64,000 bases of DNA, taken from the NCBI GenBank assembly GCA_033439255.1, contig CM065883.1:930001-994000 (forward strand), in the 5' to 3' direction. The stretch is from Hericium rajendrae (Eukaryota > Basidiomycota > Agaricomycetes > Russulales > Hericiaceae). Under the pieces are notes generated by a model, which saw nothing but the letters and a program-made list of their open reading frames with translations, was not told the origin of the DNA and ran no database searches. A program made the translations under genes and the position numbers. Shown here piece after piece: positions 19,801 through 61,942 of this stretch (positions are counted from its first letter, which is position 1; each line of letters opens with the position of its first letter).

Positions 19801-21041
19801 CCCAATATCAATTGCTTGCAGACGTCGCAAGAATTTTCCGATCGTCATGATATATCTCGTAAAGAGATCCACTGAGCGCGACGTGACGGGATCCAATTGG
19901 ATCTTTGACAGATGAATCGACGTCATAATGTTGATACGCAATTCAACCATAGATCGCAGATGGACGGCTGTCGACTGGAAGAACTCTAAGAACTACGAGA
20001 TGCATATAAGCAGGTTGGGGGATAAAAATTAGAGTTAGCGACTGACCCATGGCCGAAACTGCTGATATGGCTCCGATTGTATTTTGTTCCAAAGCCACAC
20101 AGATATTTTCATGAGAGCTTTGAAGAGTAAGTGAGCCAATAGCAAATCCTCAGCGGTTCGGGTCGAGCTCATGCTTTCTGCGCTCAAAGAAGTAAGACCT
20201 GACGCAATACTGGCGTATCGAGTGGACAGAACAAGATGTAAACTCTCGGCTAGCTATTTCGCAGATGAGTTTCGCCGTTCGTGTTCAAGAGAGAGAACAA
20301 ACCTCTCGCATTGTTTTGACTCCGGGAGCCATCTTGACCTTCGATAGCTCCTTCAATATAGAATTCAAAACACGGAGCGAACGATGAAGTATGCGTGATG
20401 TCCGCGGATCCGACGTCAACGCGATGTGTGATTCCAATGAGTTGTTAATCTGGCCCATCAGGTCGGTGACAAGGGAGGGCCTTGGATAAATTGCCAATAA
20501 GAACCTGGAGCGCAGGACGACACAAAGCACCATTACCACTGTTGCGGAAAATCCAGTCGCGCCATCCTTGCGACCACCACTTCATTGCACGCGGCGATCT
20601 AGCGACATGTTCTTAAGCTTTAGTGTCTGCTTCCATCAATTAGCAATTACTTACAGTGTCATCTTCCTCATCCAGAAATGCAAAGCTTCGTGCTCTGATT
20701 TTGGTCTTCTCTTCAGGAGAGAAAAGTCTGGCAACCTCTCAGTACCTCTTCACTGTTGGCAAATATGCAGCGAATGATACTACGTACCTTGCAGACCGCC
20801 AGTGGTTCACCGCGGCATTCTTGAATTGGATCATGGCGAGCTGACGCACTGGAAGAGCTACCGACTTCTCAGCTGCAATCTCGTGCAAGGCATCATACGT
20901 TCCGGACATGTCAAGCATCTCCTTAAGACGTGTCGATGCGGCCTGCATCTCAGCCGGGTTCTGAGATGCTGCACTACATACGACGATATACAGCTCTTGA
21001 GGTGAGACATGTTGCGGGACAGCCGCTGGTTTTTTGCCCAT
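16876..21041 (-). CDS. KAP120: Importin-beta family karyopherin Kap120 / importin-11-like
   Basis: Nuclear transport receptor made of HEAT repeats that carries cargo through nuclear pores with Ran-GTP. The start at 21041 reads MGKKPAAVPQHVSPQELY. The importin-beta N-terminal domain follows: AASTRLKEMLDMSGTYDALHE, VRQLAMIQFKNAAVNHWR, LFSPEEKTKIRARSFAFLDE and later RILHRSLRVLNSILKELSKVKM, which match the Kap120/IPO11 pattern. The C terminus ends KQVMAEVFGK. The gene occupies about 4.2 kb and is broken into many short exons by roughly 50-nt introns, so only domain-level continuity was followed. Family assignment (Kap120 rather than another long karyopherin) rests on the N-terminal block and on overall length of about 1000 residues. 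Confidence 0.82.
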
Positions 21042-21144
21042 TGGACCACAGCAGAGAAAACAGGGATATATGTGACGGAAAGAACTAAGGCAAGCAGGTA
21101 GGGGTATATGGGCAGCGGGGACGCATTTGGAGAATGCGGTCAAC

Positions 21145-21186
21145 ACGCGTACATAACGCGTCCACAAATCTGAAGATCTGACGCGT
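21145..21186. promoter_or_regulatory. Cluster of three ACGCGT (MCB-type) boxes between KAP120 and SLX4
   Basis: ACGCGT occurs at 21145-21150, 21156-21161 and 21181-21186, inside the 337-base divergent promoter. ACGCGT is the MluI cell-cycle box bound by MBF (Mbp1-Swi6) in ascomycete yeasts, driving G1/S expression of replication and repair genes. SLX4, a repair gene, fits. The second box extends to ACGCGTCCACAA, which recurs in the FPGS/REV1 promoter. Confidence 0.6.
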
Positions 21187-21378
21187 CTTGAACGGGCCAC
21201 ATCAGTTCAAACTTCAACTTGAGCCGTGTCCTCCAAGTACTCTTGCAGGCATTGCTCACATCTGTGCACTCTCAAGCTGTGTATGAGTGTGAGCTTGCTG
21301 CTTGGATTCTCTTCCCAGCCTACCGCCCTCAGAATCGCCGCCGTCGCTCGCCCCTGTGCCATTCTTTTCAGATCCGCT

Positions 21379-23557
21379 ATGTACGCTCGAAGACATGCAC
21401 GCTCCTCTCAGGCTTTCGAATTTGTCGACGACTCTGAGCCTGAAAGGGAGAATTTGAGACAAACACAAAAGGTTGCCAGACGGTTGAAGAAAGAGCAAGA
21501 GTCCCGTCCAGAAGCAAGCTCCGTCAACGCCCAAGGTCCAATGTCCAGCGGCACCCGTCATCGTCCTATTTCTATCCAGCCTAAAGACGAAGTGATTGAA
21601 CTCACTGGCGAGTGCACTGTGTACTTTGATCTATTGGCTGCATACTAATTCGGTGTATGCAGATTCAGCCGACGAATCAGCGGCTGATGAGCCACGGCCG
21701 TCTCTGCCCATGCCACCCAAAGATACTCGTCAGGATATTCCCTCAGGACACGCTTTTCATGAAGACATGTCTTCCACGGGCATTCGTCATCCAAAGTCGC
21801 CTGTCAAGGGACCGCGGTACGATGACGACGGTGAATTCTGCATCCAGGTCGGCCGTTTTGCGTACTCTGGAGACGAGCGGGTCAAGCCGGTCAAGGCCAG
21901 TACAGAAGCCTTCGTGCAGTCTGGTAGCAATGCCGCAAGTGCCAAGTCGACACCTGAACCAACATCCAAGCCAGTGCGCACGAGGAAGACTAAAGCACGC
22001 CTTGCTATTGACTTCTCTAACGCCGAGCTAGCCTCCCTTTCGAAATGCGTCTCATGTCAAATTTCCTGGACTGTGCGAAAGACTGTTCGCCAGAAGATCA
22101 ATCATATACAGACTTGCGCAAAGAAGCAGGGTTTGACACAAGACTCATTGAACGTCCTTCTTCGTCAGGAGCTAGATAAATCAACTCCAGCGGGCAGCAA
22201 GACTGTCTCTAGTGCTGAGCAAGAACCACCCGCAAAAACGTTCATGGAAGAAGTCGTTGACGATGCTGTTCCGAAGAGGCGGACGAAACGACCGAATGTT
22301 GTCCGGACCGTCGTGGGCTTGAGTCAGACGAGGACCAACATTCTGGACAAGGCACGCTCGTTTATCCAGGGCCGTCAGAATTCAGTAGAAGCTGTCCCCG
22401 AAGCCACTCAAAAATTCGGTCCAAGTAATCTTGCCTCCATTACTGAGGTTTCTGCGCCTCCCCAAACGCAACCTTTCCGTCATAGCAAGTTAGCCATCGG
22501 GCCCTCAATCGTCGAAGGTTTGATCACTACAGATGCATCGCCTAGTGGTTCTAGTGAATCACGCGACGATGAAAGTGGAAATGCCCCACCTGCAACGCGA
22601 ACTATGGCTCCTTCCAGGCTGGCTACGGCTCTGCTGCGCGATACTGGTACTTCAACGCCGTCTTCGACATATTCGTCTGCTGCGCCATCCGTGATCAGTG
22701 TACGTTTGCTTTTCATCTCTCGTGTAGATCCTACTTATAACACGTAGATATCCTCCTCTTCTCCTACACACCGTCACGTTATTTCTACTGCTCGCTCCAG
22801 CTCAAGCGAACGCTCTCGGCAACATCATTCAGTAACCACTCCGGAAGATCTCGTCCCTACTCGCCAGTCTCCTCACCTTCCGACTCATGTGAAAATCCCG
22901 CGCATGTCGATGGGTGAGATTGCATCTCATGCGGAGGGTGGAGAAGGCCAAGAAACCATAGTCGCCGATAATGTTTCCCACGGATGGTCTGACGATGATG
23001 CTTATATGCACTTCGAAACGGAGTTGAATACAATGTCGTCTTTCCAACATCACCCGCGTGTTTCGAGGTCGTTGTCGCCTATCCTTTCTCGAGATGATCG
23101 TAATGACAACTCACCTGCACCGTCGCAACAAGCTGGGCGCAAAATGAAGAGGGTACGAAGCAACAAGGGCAATGGCAAGGTCAAAGAAGGGGTCGTCGGC
23201 ATCATGGATGACACGACCTTCGCATCACAGTTCAGAGACCTTATCCTGGCGGACGCCATGCTCCATCTCCGCATACTACGATACGAAGTACGAGTTGCTC
23301 GTATTACTGAATACGATGCCTTTCATACTGACTCGTACTGCTCAGCCTATTGACTTTCAAGTATTCATGACAATAGCGGAGAGCTTGGGAGTCTCGAATC
23401 GGGGACTGAAGCTCAAAATCAGGAGCTTCCTTGACCAACACGTACGAGATCAAGAACGCGAATCGTACTTGCCTTAACTGATTTTTTGACACGACAGGCG
23501 GTCAACTTCTATGGCGCAGAACCGGGAGGTACTCGGACGAGAAAGCGGCATCCTTAG
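21379..23557 (+). CDS. SLX4: Structure-specific endonuclease scaffold subunit SLX4
   Basis: Predicted nuclear scaffold that binds the Slx1 nuclease for cutting branched DNA. The chosen start (21379) reads MYARRHARSSQAFEFVDDSE; the protein is mostly disordered and Ser/Pro rich. Two conserved islands support the call: a zinc-finger-like block CVSCQISWTVRKTVRQKINH...C near residue 190, and the C-terminal Slx4 domain, from FASQFRDLILADAMLHLRIL to PIDFQVFMTIAESLGVSNRG and IRSFLDQHAVNFYG. Splices: intron 1 21608-21662 works in phase only with a GC donor (G|GCGAGT...CAG); later introns are GT-AG. The stop codon is 120 bases from the convergent FPGS stop. SLX4 proteins diverge fast, so the call rests on the C-terminal domain. 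Confidence 0.78.
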
Positions 23558-23676
23558 ATGCTATAAGAAAATTTCCTCGAAATAATTATAGATATATCTA
23601 ATCCAGCCCCTGTTGAAGGTATGACGGGAGTTTATCCGGATATCCTGCATGGTATCATGACATCGTCCAATGTGAG

Positions 23677-25744
23677 CTATAGAGCCACGTCCGACAGCCC
23701 AGCGACTTCGATGACACCTCCAACAAGATGGAGACTGCCAGACACCAAGACGTCCACGTTTGTATCGCCGTCACCATCGCGAGTCGATGCAAGTTCGCGT
23801 ATGAGACCAATTGCATGCTCGATAGATGGGAGCACATGGATATTCTGAGATGGGAAGGACGGCACCAGGGAAGACCATGCCGTCGCTAAGTCCTGTTGTG
23901 TCTTCAAGTGCGCCAGGTCGTTCTCTGGTATGGCGAGAGTGGTCAAATCTGTGCCAGCCATGTGAACTGTTGCTAACTGAAGAGTCGAACCGATATCTGT
24001 ACCTCCTTTGAACCCTCCGTCAGCGTATGTGACGTTCGTGCAGAAGATTATATGGGTGAAGAACGAGTTCCGTTCTTCGTCGGACCCAAACAACTTGAGC
24101 TGAGCGGCAACAATGGAGAGGACGGTGCCTAAGAACGACGACCCATTGCGACCGCTCGTGCAATTAAAGACGAGGATTCGCATTCGCTGCCGTCTTCTGC
24201 TAGACGTGAGGTGAAAGTGTAAAAACGGCATAAGCGCAGCACTCACCCTGTCGTGGGTCTTAATGCGGCTTCTGGGCTTACGAACCATCGAGTACAGCAA
24301 TCCAGACTCTCAGTAGTGTGTGCGCCGTCCAAAAACCAGGTTGTGTTGTGGTATCTGGGATCAGCTACGATTTGACATCTTCCAGGCCATCGCGCGTTCT
24401 CAAGCCCTGCAATGAAGGACTTGGGAAGCTGCGCCGTCGGCTCGAAACCGTCTTGGATCTGCAAGAATTTACGAGCTAAATGGACTGCCAGGTTGGCATT
24501 CTGAACTTGATGGGCCCCCGCTAGCCCTGAAAACAATGGATATGTCACCCGATCAGTCTTTGGACGAGAACCATCGTACCAAGTTTGATGTCAGCCAACT
24601 CGGGCATTTCAGGTACGACGGAGAATTCAAGATGCCTAAACAGAACATGAGAAGTTGCGGACCTCACTGCACTATACAACACACTTTGCGATCAATACTT
24701 TGCTGTTTGAGCACCGATAAGGCTTCTTCAGGTTGGTTGACCGTCAAAGCTGGCACTCCTTCCTGAATGCACAGATCAGTCCTCGAAACAGGAACTAAAG
24801 ATGGGAACCTACCTTGTAGATGCCTCCTTTCTGCCACGCAATTTCTGGAAGCGTCTTACCAAGCACCGCGGTATGGTCGATGCCAAGAGCAGACACGCCA
24901 GTTACGATGGGCTTTGGAACGATGTTGGTACTGTCGTAGGTGCCGCCCACGCCCACCTCCAGAATCGTGGCATCGACCTATTCCATGATGAGATCATGAG
25001 ATGTTTTATGAAGATCTTGGTGATATAGCATTCACCTTTAGAGTCAGAAAAGCATGAAAAGCAACCAATGTCACGTATCGGAAATATGCTGGTTTTGCTG
25101 GAGTCTGCGGGAGCTTTCGCTATGGAGAAATTTAAACTAGAGATATTGAAGAAGTTTAGAGACATACGATATCATTCTTCTCTAGTCGATCCCAGACTTC
25201 GAAGAAATATTTGGCAAACTCCTCCTCGGATAGCGGTGTGCCATTGATACGTATTCGCTCACGAACTGCTACAAGATGTGGAGACGTATAAAGTCCTGAT
25301 TTTGTCCTTAGCAAATAAATAATATGTCAACAATCAGTCATACCTATCTTCCAATCGGGTTTAACGTGACGCAATATTGAGTTGGCAAACGCGGATGTAG
25401 AGCCTTTGCCTTTAGTTCCCGCTACATGGAGCACGTTAAGCTTGTTCAGGTCTTCTTGCTGGTTGTTGGGTAATGGGTTCTCGGTCATCGAAGTCTGTAA
25501 TACGACAGACCTTATATCCTATTCTCCCCAAGTATTCAACCATTTCTGGGATGGCAAATTCACTCTGACGCCCTCCGGAGGCTCTGACCGCTTCGAGGGT
25601 TGCAGCGTTGGATTGAAGTGTATTGAGACGGTCTATTGCATCCTTGTAGGTCCTGGTTGACATAGCTCTGGAAAAGACGTGCACAATGCGTCTTAGAGCA
25701 AGAGATGGGGGTTGGTGGGTGAGATAACGAGTGCAAAGGTGCAT
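23677..25744 (-). CDS. FPGS: Folylpolyglutamate synthase with alternative mitochondrial/cytosolic starts
   Basis: ATP-dependent ligase that adds glutamates to folates, keeping them in cells and mitochondria. The Mur-ligase P-loop is HVAGTKGKGSTSAF; also present are YTSPHLVAVRERIRI, TILEVGVGGTYDSTN, SALGIDHTAVLG, the second-domain WPGRCQIV and WFLDGAHT, and the C-terminal VDVLVSGSLHLVGG. The first ATG at 25744 gives an N-terminal extension MHLCTRYLTHQPPSLALRRI followed by VHVFSRA, rich in Arg/Leu/Ser and free of acids, i.e. a mitochondrial presequence. A second in-frame ATG at 25663 starts the core (MSTRTYKDAIDRL). Two starts for mitochondrial and cytosolic forms are known for eukaryotic FPGS; here they are inferred from sequence. 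Multiple short introns. Confidence 0.93.
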
Positions 25745-25893
25745 TCGACCGAATATGTAGTGTCACCCCGGCGCTCAGCAGCTTCCTCTTCCTCAGGCCC
25801 GGATTGATCGCTGCGAGGCAGATCTCAGATTTCCCCGAGATCTTATCTTATTTATCACGTGCGCGAGACGAGAATGACGTGACCGCGATTTGA

Positions 25894-25918
25894 ACGCGTT
25901 GGCTTCACGCGTCCACAA
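25894..25918. promoter_or_regulatory. Paired ACGCGT (MCB-type) boxes between FPGS and REV1
   Basis: ACGCGT occurs at 25894-25899 and 25907-25912, the second continuing as ACGCGTCCACAA to 25918, identical over 12 bases to 21156-21167 in the SLX4 promoter. The region is the 279-base divergent promoter of a folate gene and a translesion polymerase fragment, both plausible S-phase targets. Confidence 0.6.
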
Positions 25919-26023
25919 CTTGAACGAACTTTAGTCGACGAACATCCCTTCATTCATAACATTCGCAGTGCGGTTGCCTGATAATTTCTGCTAACCTGCC
26001 GTAATCTCTTCATGTGCGAGCCA

Positions 26024-26945
26024 TGGATAAGTTTGTTACGGTGACAAAACGCTCAAGCTCTCGTGCCACAAGCTCAGATGGTGAAAAAACAAAAATGAAG
26101 CACAGATACAATCCCTATGGCATTAACAAGAGCAACGAACGGGGTTATGAAAGATGGAAGGATAATAAACGGACGCAGAGGTAGGCATTGATTTATCGTA
26201 GTTTTCGGTGTCTCTCATGGAAAACATATGTAGAATTCTCGCCCCCTTTCGAAAAGATGCGTCCAGTCCATCCACAGTTTCGTCAGGAAGAATTACCAAG
26301 CATCTCCTCAACACGCTCACCGACGAATCAAACCCCATCACTCACTCTGACAGCATTCGACGAGCTGGTACGTCATCAGTTGAGTATGGAATGAGAAATC
26401 TACTGACTTTAATAATGGGTTAGATCATGTCTCATCTGTTGCGACGGGACACCAATGCGGGGAAAACCATGGCTCGAGACGCACATATTTTGACATACGA
26501 AACACAAAGCTTGCAGAACAGACCACTGCTCAAGAGACGAGTGTGTTGCGTAATGTCCGCGTGTACATCAACGGGTATCTTCAGGACACGACGGATATTG
26601 AAATGAAGCGAATCATTTCTCAAGCAGGAGGTGAAGTAATGTTTGTCGAGTTTTTTTAGCTTCAAGAAAAAAAGCTGATGAGCATCACAGGCGGACTGCG
26701 GCTGGCGCAACACATATTTTAACCTCTCAGCAACTGAACGGGGCGAAGACGCACAAATTGCTCACTTCAAAGCGAAACATAAGATCCATGTTGTCAGGCC
26801 TGAATGGGTCATAGACAGCATCAATGGCGGGATGCGATTACCTGAGAGGGCCTATTCCGTTGTGACGGATACGACGACCTCAAATCTAGAGGACATGATG
26901 CAAGTGAGCTCAAACATCCACAAGAGCAAGACACCCAAACTATGA
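26024..26945 (+). pseudogene. REV1: N-terminal REV1 (translesion polymerase) fragment with BRCT domain, frameshifted
   Basis: Spliced exons from MDKFVTVTKRSSSRATSSDG give the N-terminal layout of fungal Rev1: YFDIRNTKLAEQT, then a BRCT domain VYINGYLQDTTDIEMKRIIS, AGATHILTSQQLNGAKTHKL, and after a break VVRPEWVIDSINGGMRLPER. All introns are phase-consistent. A one-base loss lies between LLTSK and AKHKIHVVRPEW (near 26775). Shortly after the BRCT domain the reading ends with NLEDMMQVSSNIHKSKTPKL and stop. No deoxycytidyl-transferase domain follows; EFR3 begins next. So this is a truncated and frameshifted copy of a host gene, or the remnant of the original locus. Its promoter still carries the MCB-type boxes. 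Confidence 0.8.
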
Positions 26946-27121
26946 CACGACGCATTCGTTAAGACTCAACGTCCATAATCATGGAAAATAAATCATCGAT
27001 CGGATACCCAGTTGGCGATTCAAAACCGGTGGGGAGGCTCGTTTCCAAACTATTGTAGTATTTTGATGCAATGTAGCGATGAGTTGTATTTCATTGTACA
27101 CTGATCACGACGGGCCCTCCC
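26946..27121. other. Short spacer between REV1 fragment and EFR3
   Basis: No feature recognised; it marks the place where the catalytic part of REV1 would be expected but is absent. Confidence 0.5.
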
Positions 27122-30100
27122 ATGAGTATACACAGGTGCTGCTGTTCTAAGATGCAAGAGATAGGTGTTAGACTCTTGAAGCGGGGCTGGTCCCGGGGAG
27201 TGCGGGGAAAGCACGTGGCCACTACGTCAAAAAGTGTTGAGGTCAGCGCGACGGATGCGGCTCGTACAACCCACCGCAAGCTCGACGTCCTCTACCCTCT
27301 TTCGCTCTCCTTAAATACACCGCCCTTATTCTACCCCTTCCTACTTATACAGGACTCTCCTTCAAGGTCACTGGCTCTCCTTTCGTTCAATGCATCTCCC
27401 TTCACACCGAATCACGTGCAATTAATATCTGCATGCTACCCTCCATCCGCCGCCCTCCTCACTGCGGGTCCAGAATATCGTCCCAATGCTCAAGAGTTAT
27501 CGCGCCTAACGTATTATGCCTCAAACAGACCAGGAAAGATCAACAAATTAGGGTCTGAGCTCGAGAAGAGAATCAGGGGGGAATGCAAGAAGGCGCAAGC
27601 TGGTAATGCTCGTGCTAGAGCGTGAGTGCCAATCCTTCGTCATTCAGCCTGCTTTGACGAAGCATTATTCAGTTCGCTGCTCATTTCACTTTCTATCATG
27701 CGCGCACTGGCTACGGAGTGTCGCCGTGATATCTCCCTCCTGACACCTTCTCTGCTGACCTCTATAGACACAGTTCTCGCCGGTCTTTCTACCGACCTCG
27801 AGGTCTCTGCGAAAGTTGCGACATTGGTGAGCATAATATGAATGGAGTCTTTATAGGATCTTCGTACTGAATATGTTTAGTTCACCACCTTCACCACCTT
27901 CACAGATGGACGCCTCATCGGCGTGGATAGTCATGTCACGAGGGTTTACATGTCTATTTTGGACAGGTTCTCTCAAATGAGTGCCATAACCTCCAAGTCC
28001 TCTGACCACGAGTTTCGAAATCGGTAAGGAAATCTCTGTCATAGAACTATTTTAGTCTCATCCACATGCAGAACTCGTTTAGTGGGCCTTGCTGCTCTCA
28101 GTGGGGCCGTGACGTCGGAGGCACTATATGGCTCGAACTCATTCAGGATTCAAGCCTCTAAAATTGTGTCAGCGCTGGTGATAGACGTGCACGACGTTGA
28201 TCTCTCGATATTGGAGAATGAGTAAGCATCGCATGGTTTGTCTTGAAAGTGTCTAATTGATGGCCTTCCTAGATCCGCAACATTGAAGGAGAAAACAACA
28301 TCTCCGTATCTGGCGGAATTCCGTACACGACCTACGGTCGAAAGACGCGCCGCGTCAATACATCTTCACAAGGATGGTGATAAGGGACCTTCGTCCGTCG
28401 ACGTCACGAATGCCTGTCTGCGGACCTTTTCGACTCTTCTTGATCATTCCAACGGTGCTCAAGTAGCTGACGTGGTGCACGCTGCGTTAGAAAGCCTTGA
28501 CGACTGGAAGGGATGGGAGAAAAGTGGTCATTGCTGTTGGCTGGCTCGGAAAATGACCGACTGGTCGCAGTATCAATATCGATATGCTGTTCCGACACGG
28601 TTAGTGGAGTGTCTCCAGGAGAATCAAGATGCGCCTGTCACTAGGCCGCTGCACCATGCCTTAGCTTCCATGATCACAACTGTCTTCGATTCGCCCACCA
28701 CGGTCGTCAATCTGTCCACTTCTGACATCATCTCAACCCTCATTACCATCGTCCTTCGCAGAACAGCATCAGACCCAGATGACAGTCTTCTACCGTCTTT
28801 GGCGGCTTGCATTGCTTCGTTGAGCACCCATGTCTACTATTCTGACCAGATACACGATCTGGCCAGTGAACTGATTAGTAGGTTAATCACTGTTGAAGCC
28901 AACGGTGTTCCTGGACGAGAACGAGATGCGAACGACCGAAGTCGAGTCCAAGCCGTTAGGTGCCTCCTAGCCGGTCTGGTCGGTCTTATCCAGGCTGCTA
29001 ATCGTCATGAAGCGGGCAAACCAGACGAGCAGCGAGGTCGAGAGGAGCATAGAAGAAGCGAGGAGACGTCTAACGCTATTACTTCAACCTTTATTGCCTC
29101 AGAAGATCCCCAAAAACCGGTGCGGGTATCGATTGAACATGCCGACGACACTGGACGTCCATCTAATCGGACGAAGCTTGCTCCCGAGATATGGCAAGAC
29201 ACCCTGCACATTCTTTGCGACGAGAACTACGCTGTTCGCGCCGACTACGTCACTGCTCTTATCTTGTACCTAGAAACAGAAATATCGAGACGCGGCGAAT
29301 ACACCGACCAAGATGGCGTCCGGCGCCCACGACCATTGGCTGAAGGCCCTCTGCAGCAAGCGAGCAACATGATTGCAATGCTCTACGGCGATGCTTCTAC
29401 CCGATTTCTTCATGCTGCTCACGTGTATCTCTACATCTTGACTACTGCTTCTTCCCTTGGGACTTCCACGGCGTCATCATCTCCCGCTCGTTCGATGATT
29501 GGAGATGTGACTGGGAGTGCTGATGCTTCCGGGGTTGTTTACACCACTGCCGAGCCGCGTTTGTCCCTCACTGGCGAGCGCCGGGATTCCCCGACTCATT
29601 CACAGCACAATCGTCGGTCCATGTCTATCCCAGTCCGCATTCGAAAGCAGTCCGCAATTCAGCAAATGTTATCCCAACTGCCGTCGGAGCTTTCACTTTC
29701 CATCGCCACCGCATCGGACTATCGCAACATTCTTGTCGTTCTGCAGACAATTCACGAGCACCTGCCGGTCCGCGGTTTGCTGACAGGTGTACCGTTTCTA
29801 CTGCGTCTAGCCTCTATGGTCCGGAACGAAAGTACGCATCCCAACGAACTGGCTCGCGTACTCATTTTGCGGGAAGTTATCGTCCGAATTTGTCTATGCA
29901 TTGGGAAGACATGGGATTGCCAGGACGTGGTGACTTTGGCCGAACAGGTTTGTCGTCATGTTTCGATTGATTCCAGCTCGACGAATTGAATGCTTGTATC
30001 AGTCCCTTTCTTCAATGCCCGTCTCGTCTTATCTTCCCATATCTCTGAAGCGAAAGCCGGGGACATTAAACCCTCCGGAAGAACCTGTTCCATTAGTTCC

Positions 30101-60860: not shown

Positions 60861-61645
60861 TCAGACATCTTGTCTACGAAGGTCCAAAAGGCCTTTCATC
60901 AGAGACTGTACTTCAAGTACAGCGTCGATAGACCGGGTGAGCGGCGTTTCTTGTGTGTTGCGAATGGGAACTGCCGTTCTGACCTCTACTTCCCATAAAG
61001 TGTCCGCATGAGCTGGTACCGGTTGTTGTGTCTTCGGGTCGACCTGTGCGCAAATCGCTAGGATAAGTTCTGCGGAAAGAAGATGGGCTTGGGCACATAC
61101 CTGCTCTTGCTGAAACATCTGTATCACCAAGCTACCACGTCGGAAAGCGTAGCCCCGTTTGTAAATCTGTGAGCGGCGACTGCATGGGAAGGGTAGCTTT
61201 TGGTCAACGAAATAAGATAAAGAGAAAGGCTGCTACCACGCACATATATCCAAGGGCAGATGCAAAGCTTAACGCATCACCTACAACGTGCACGATCGCC
61301 CAAGGACGCACTGTCGCTTCCGGATGTACACGAACGGATTCAGGCTTGAGATACGAATAGAGCACCCTATGCATATCGGCAATGTTACCATTCGCATCTT
61401 ATTCAATGAACGCATGAGTACTCACCAGCCAGCCTGCGGCTCCAGCAGCTCTTTCTTGGCGCGAAGCAAGCCGGGTCCTGGCCCGAATCGCGCTGCTGCT
61501 GGGCATCTATCGGCTCGAACACGACCTCACGGGTGTGCATCTGGCTCGTGGATTCGCTGTGTAGGGCGATACGGTTCAAGATTGCTTTGAGATCGTGAGC
61601 AAAGAATTCGCCAAACAGGGCGACTTCGTAGGATTGGGTGGACAT
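60861..61645 (-). CDS. MED18: Mediator complex subunit 18 (head module)
   Basis: Head-module subunit of Mediator, paired with Med20. The start at 61645 reads MSTQSYEVALFGEFFAHDLK. Further conserved pieces: AILNRIALHSESTSQMH, LLRAKKELLEPQAGW, LKPESVRVHPEATVRPWAIV, HVVGDALSFASALGY, YKRGYAFRRGSLVIQMFQQE, and the end SIDAVLEVQSLMKGLLDLRR. The frame changes between MHTREVVFEPIDAQ and LLRAKKELLEP. A 53-nt intron beginning at GTGAGG directly after MHT and ending GGGCCAG restores phase, but it removes REVVFEP, which I recall as conserved; the alternative is a one-base frameshift near 61490. The rest of the gene splices normally (for example QEQ-VDPKTQQPVP). Confidence 0.85.
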
Positions 61646-61942
61646 AGTTTTTGAAGCGTGAACGCGTGGAAAACGGAGAAGTCAAAGTCAAGGCGACGAG
61701 AGCATGCGCGTCTAACACGTTCATGATTCTCTGACGCGACGCGTTGTCGCATTGCCGAAGAGACGACATGTCGAAGTTTGCTGATCGTAGCCCAAAATAA
61801 AAATAAAAACCATACAACATCAGGCTTATGAGATATCAGACTGCCTCGGACTGAAACCGTTTGAGTTGTGGAATAGCAAACAGATTAATACTAGGTTAAA
61901 CAGTGCGACGAAAACGACATGGTATCTTCGATAGCATCTCGT

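Follow-up and report, generated by a model that had tools for sequence, protein, structure and literature searches.

The question raised by this locus is whether two divergent promoters of the basidiomycete Hericium rajendrae, one between KAP120 and SLX4 and the other between FPGS and a gene with a REV1-type BRCT region, are cell-cycle promoters read by an Mbp1-type MBF complex. Both lie in a stretch of 64,000 nucleotides (C6:930001-994000, further called the window) of an assembly of 46.77 Mb in 19 contigs. A preliminary description of the window had drawn attention to clusters of the word ACGCGT, a candidate MluI cell-cycle box (MCB), in both promoters and to a 12-mer, ACGCGTCCACAA, common to them. 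All these positions were exact: ACGCGT starts at 21145, 21156 and 21181 in the KAP120/SLX4 promoter and at 25894 and 25907 in the other one, and the window contains the 12-mer in exact form twice and no more, on the + strand each time (21156-21167 and 25907-25918). It is considered probable that the boxes are MCBs read by an Mbp1-type MBF, as they would be at the MCM, RNR1 and POL3 promoters of the same genome, with ACGCGTC / GACGCG as the presumed working site.

The evidence carrying this reading comes from the S-phase genes of the genome itself. Five MCM loci were found by a PF00493 profile search and all five were used; they are presumably MCM3, 4, 5, 6 and 7, assigned on sequence features, and MCM2 was not found among the MCM loci of the genome. 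Gene starts were placed by eye from the translations, with the ACGCGT positions in some of the loci already seen, and the promoters of MCM4 and MCM6 were obtained later than the others. Within the 105 bp that directly precede the ATG, CGCGTC/GACGCG is the top of 361 six-mers, present in all five promoters and counted 14 times against 0.52 expected; the background here and in the further promoter counts is the whole window and not promoters, which has to be held against the size of the excess. The complete ACGCGT occurs in four of the five (MCM4 at -101, MCM5 at -56, MCM6 at -40 and MCM7 at -76), and the MCM3 promoter carries a GACGCGACGCGA tandem in its place. On this point the earlier interpretation is supported by these counts: here ACGCGT/GACGCG can be regarded as a word of S-phase promoters.

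Two further genes extend the set. RNR1 (PF02867) has an ACGCGT triple at -437, -408 and -389, and POL3 (PF00136; pol delta is the best match in the PDB, expectation value (E) 7.4e-31) has three ACGCGT copies that lie 148-184 bp upstream of the first exon that can be recognised, the start codon not being placed. Because RNR1 and POL3 were chosen for nearby triple clusters, the MCM set is the less biased test. Over the seven promoters (2,462 bases, with MCM4 cut at 250 bp, which excludes an ACGCGT at -383 in an apparent coding end of the neighbour) CGCGTC is found 28 times against 2.42 expected and ACGCGT 10 times against 0.85, and the other CG-rich palindromes show no comparable excess (CGCGCG 3 against 0.81, TCGCGA 2 against 0.92). 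The usual form of the site is GACGCGTC or ACGCGTC. The set does not include the SMC genes or the additional loci of B-family polymerases on C4, C1 and C11, and ACGCGT is absent from the 1.5 kb before the other C4 and C1 B-family polymerase domains.

The genome also encodes the kind of factor on which the MBF proposal depends. The KilA-N profile (PF04383) finds two genes, the DNA-binding domain of each resembles that of Mbp1 of known structure (E 2.8e-19 and 3.3e-23), and ankyrin repeats are encoded in both loci; an Mbp1-type MBF complex would be the reader of the MluI cell-cycle boxes. The same pair of genes could also provide an Mbp1/Swi6-type factor acting in stress control and not in the cell cycle, as described for CAT1 in Ganoderma lucidum, where Swi6B is reported to bind the CAT1 promoter, whose two ACGCGT boxes were investigated by yeast one-hybrid assay, electrophoretic mobility shift assay and chromatin immunoprecipitation with quantitative PCR (PMC12285235). 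That system resembles the present one in that ACGCGT is bound by a basidiomycete APSES protein, and differs from it in that the target is a stress gene with two boxes about 80 bp apart. In this genome, however, the word is concentrated at the MCM promoters and the neighbours of the boxes are nuclease-scaffold and folate genes, and stress control is held to be very improbable.

The KAP120/SLX4 promoter is the better of the two candidates for MBF control. It occupies 21042-21378, between the ATG of KAP120 at 21041 (- strand) and that of SLX4, read at 21379 (+ strand), and both names given earlier are confirmed, KAP120/importin-11 by IBN_N and TPR_IPO11 domains and SLX4 by PF09494 (E 7.2e-8 on joined exons). 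The three boxes fall within 42 bp; their distance to the ATG is 104-145 bp on the KAP120 side and 193-234 bp on the SLX4 side. The first (21145-21150, CACGCGTA) is the poorest fit to GACGCGTC, the second (21156-21161, AACGCGTC) forms the first half of the 12-mer, and the third (21181-21186) is GACGCGTC itself, as at MCM5, MCM6, MCM7, RNR1 and POL3. When CGCGTC and ACGCGT are counted together per 150 bp, a form of score suggested by the S-phase promoters, this promoter scores 6, higher than anywhere else in the window and within the S-phase range (MCM genes 2-5, POL3 8, RNR1 9). The score is partly circular, a point against the reading that slightly lowers the confidence in it, as it counts the same boxes that first drew attention; what it adds independently is the C or G flank of boxes 2 and 3, as at the MCM genes. 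On this pattern MBF control of SLX4/KAP120 is likely, the earlier suggestion of MCB-type control is upheld within the limits of that circularity, and the promoter is most likely an ordinary MBF/MCB promoter, the SLX4 side of the reading being fairly well supported. The three boxes would give transcription peaking at G1/S, perhaps kept up under replication stress; the responding gene is most plausibly SLX4, and KAP120 may merely share the promoter. As a separate observation, the stretch that ranks second in the window by this MCB-like score lies near 61661, beside an open reading frame (ORF) start at 61645 (- strand, 61645-61811); a MED18 label given by eye to the 61406-61681 ORF was not confirmed by Pfam.

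A quite different explanation is that a CpG-rich palindrome has clustered by chance and that neither promoter is regulated by MBF. Inside the window the clustering looks exceptional: of the 22 ACGCGT copies (15.2 expected, with 22 reached in 5 of 100 shuffles) the boxes of the two clusters form all four close pairs (within 36 bases) against 0.22 expected, and ACGCGT ranks first for such pairs among 64 palindromic 6-mers. At the genome scale, with the reversed word TGCGCA as control, the picture turns against the MBF reading in several respects. Pairs with a gap of 0-30 number 478 (0.65 per 64 kb) against 489 in the control, triples number 45 (the KAP120/SLX4 cluster is one of them) against 68, and at the genome-wide rate at least two pairs would fall in one window with a chance of 0.14. 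A sample of 15 triple loci, from which three were dropped as repeats and twelve were kept, contained 200 ORFs of at least 75 amino acids, of which 133 were scanned at E 1e-4 or better with the RNR1 side of its locus excluded. The 15 families found there are mixed and few hint at S phase; among them are TTI1, WW/rotamase, Sec1, anthranilate synthase, cyclophilin, otubain, RNase III and a YABBY match, which we take to be HMG-like. Because of these mixed neighbours, triple clusters are not confined to S-phase genes. Furthermore, the control gene CCT eta (a Cpn60_TCP1 gene at C1:1561450-1562050, identified by a PDB match with E 3.6e-9) carries GACGCGTC twice, at -98 and -122, and in the part of C1 with listed pairs a close pair stands near one of three CCT loci and within 3 kb upstream of none of the four replication/SMC domains, that of the SMC gene being at 3.3 kb. 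The box region of CCT eta may be common to a divergent gene.

Clusters were consequently rejected as diagnostic of S-phase promoters. Against chance stand the strong enrichment of the word at the MCM promoters and the first place of KAP120/SLX4 in the window by a score derived from S-phase promoters, and as an explanation of these promoters chance is considered unlikely, with enough weight to be kept in mind.

The common 12-mer does not exceed what chance would give. The CCACAA half had been suggested as a possible basidiomycete-specific part of the site. Counted over the genome, ACGCGTCCACAA has 11 copies against 15 of the reversed control and about 6.8 predicted from the window frequencies, hence no excess. 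None of the 22 ACGCGT flanks in the MCM, RNR1 and POL3 promoters carries CCACAA. Some pair among the 22 window boxes would have a common 6-base flank with a chance of 20%; if the comparison is confined to the two clusters, this chance falls to 0.6%, but that figure was computed post hoc. Because the genome counts do not exceed the controls, there is nothing special in the 12-mer or in clustering by itself; of the original observation the positions and the local excess of close pairs stand, and the distinction of the 12-mer and of the clusters across the genome does not. One could still imagine that the common unit is longer and specific to basidiomycetes, namely ACGCGTCCACAA, possibly together with TTGAAC words close by and bound by a lineage-specific partner. 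Besides the common 12-mer, both promoters hold CTTGAACG/TTGAAC words near the boxes (21187-21220 and 25888-25925), and TTGAAC also adjoins the GACGCG tandem of MCM3. TTGAAC is a word resembling the cell cycle genes homology region. As a partner word it was rejected, however, as GTTCAA occurs near 23 MCB cluster loci twice against 2.3 expected, and with the 12-mer and flank counts this makes the longer site the most doubtful explanation of all. The CCACAA extension was likewise rejected and is judged incidental to the working site.

For the second promoter the MBF reading is possible and is given with lower confidence. It spans 25745-26022, with the ATG of FPGS at 25663 (- strand) and that of the BRCT gene at 26023 (+ strand), and the FPGS label is confirmed by a match to the folC subfamily (E 2.3e-65). 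The two boxes, AACGCGTT at 25894-25899 and CACGCGTC at 25907-25912, are present as had been said and may act like those of KAP120/SLX4. The score is 3, above that of MCM3 only, and KAP120/SLX4 apart, five stretches elsewhere in the window reach 4 or 5; the low score counts against the reading here, and its FPGS side is weakly supported. On the FPGS gene itself, the region 25439-25762 (- strand) has a second in-frame upstream ATG at 25744, followed by a targeting-like stretch, which is possibly an organelle-targeted start. In dual mitochondrial/cytosolic FPGS an upstream in-frame ATG precedes the targeting stretch.

The partner of FPGS is not the intact translesion polymerase gene that its earlier name, REV1, implied. 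At 26023-26942 (+ strand) there is a REV1-type N-terminal/BRCT region with no polymerase domain, and its two BRCT halves are in different frames. Read through the frame switch with an X, the region matches the Pfam BRCT family (5.7e-6), and among its nine PDB hits the first four are REV1 BRCT structures (best 3.4e-4), so this part of the label holds; the halves taken singly give weak or chance matches only. No GTA or GTG donor was seen from 26636 to 26862 in a scan limited to these types. The 26023-26942 gene lacks IMS and REV1_C domains, and an EFR3-like gene (PF21072) comes next, at 27083-29989, with one ORF barely past the cut-off and one below it. Y-family IMS domains were found on C7, C5 and C10, and the single REV1_C match of the genome is at C7:388559-388894. 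Because this and the IMS domain at C7:386389-386949 are both present 1.6 kb apart, and are assumed to belong to one gene, the C7 gene is taken as REV1; of the other two, the one on C5 is Pol eta (E 7.9e-19) and the one on C10 presumably Pol kappa, by its sequence features. A genome search with the first BRCT half returned only its match to itself. The window gene is a partial REV1, either split, or duplicated and decaying, or misassembled. If REV1 were split, a BRCT-only gene with an MCB-bearing promoter common with FPGS, encoded apart from the polymerase and C-terminal part on another contig, might be transcribed in S phase and give recruitment to forks in trans. This is rather improbable; it is likelier that the gene is a partial copy in decay or that the assembly is wrong where the frame switches.

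As to known systems, a study of Cryptococcus neoformans (Kelliher et al. 2016, PMC5137879) reports ACGCGT at transcription factor network and DNA replication promoters, the CGCG core being present in 7 of the 12 former and 35 of the 38 latter. The likeness is that ACGCGT is enriched at replication promoters of a basidiomycete, the Mbp1-type factor there being Mbs1; the difference is that the top word here is GACGCG/CGCGTC. SLX4 and REV1 do not occur in the main text of that article, which has little meaning as its genes are mostly given by CNAG numbers. For the fission yeast repair gene rhp51+, two MCBs are reported to drive expression at G1/S and under replication stress (PMC4221157). It is similar in that a pair of MCBs precedes a gene of recombination repair, and unlike the present case it concerns another gene and rests on reporters, where here there is sequence alone. 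MBF targets of fission yeast are reported to include repair genes (PMC2726434); in the accessible parts of PMC3924824, PMC9258583 and PMC2726434 there is no statement on SLX4 as an MBF target. A literature search, in which most matches were left unopened, gave no paper on the two promoters or on SLX4 as an MBF target, and a plasmid collection searched with 20500-26500 gave no match.

MCB enrichment at basidiomycete replication promoters is already published (PMC5137879), and SLX4 would be a new case of a known switch. What is added for one basidiomycete genome is sequence evidence that GACGCG(T) marks the MCM promoters, together with the lesson that box clusters or a common 12-mer, taken alone, are poor guides to such control. 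The regulon of the MCM genes probably also includes SLX4, the scaffold protein for structure-specific nucleases.

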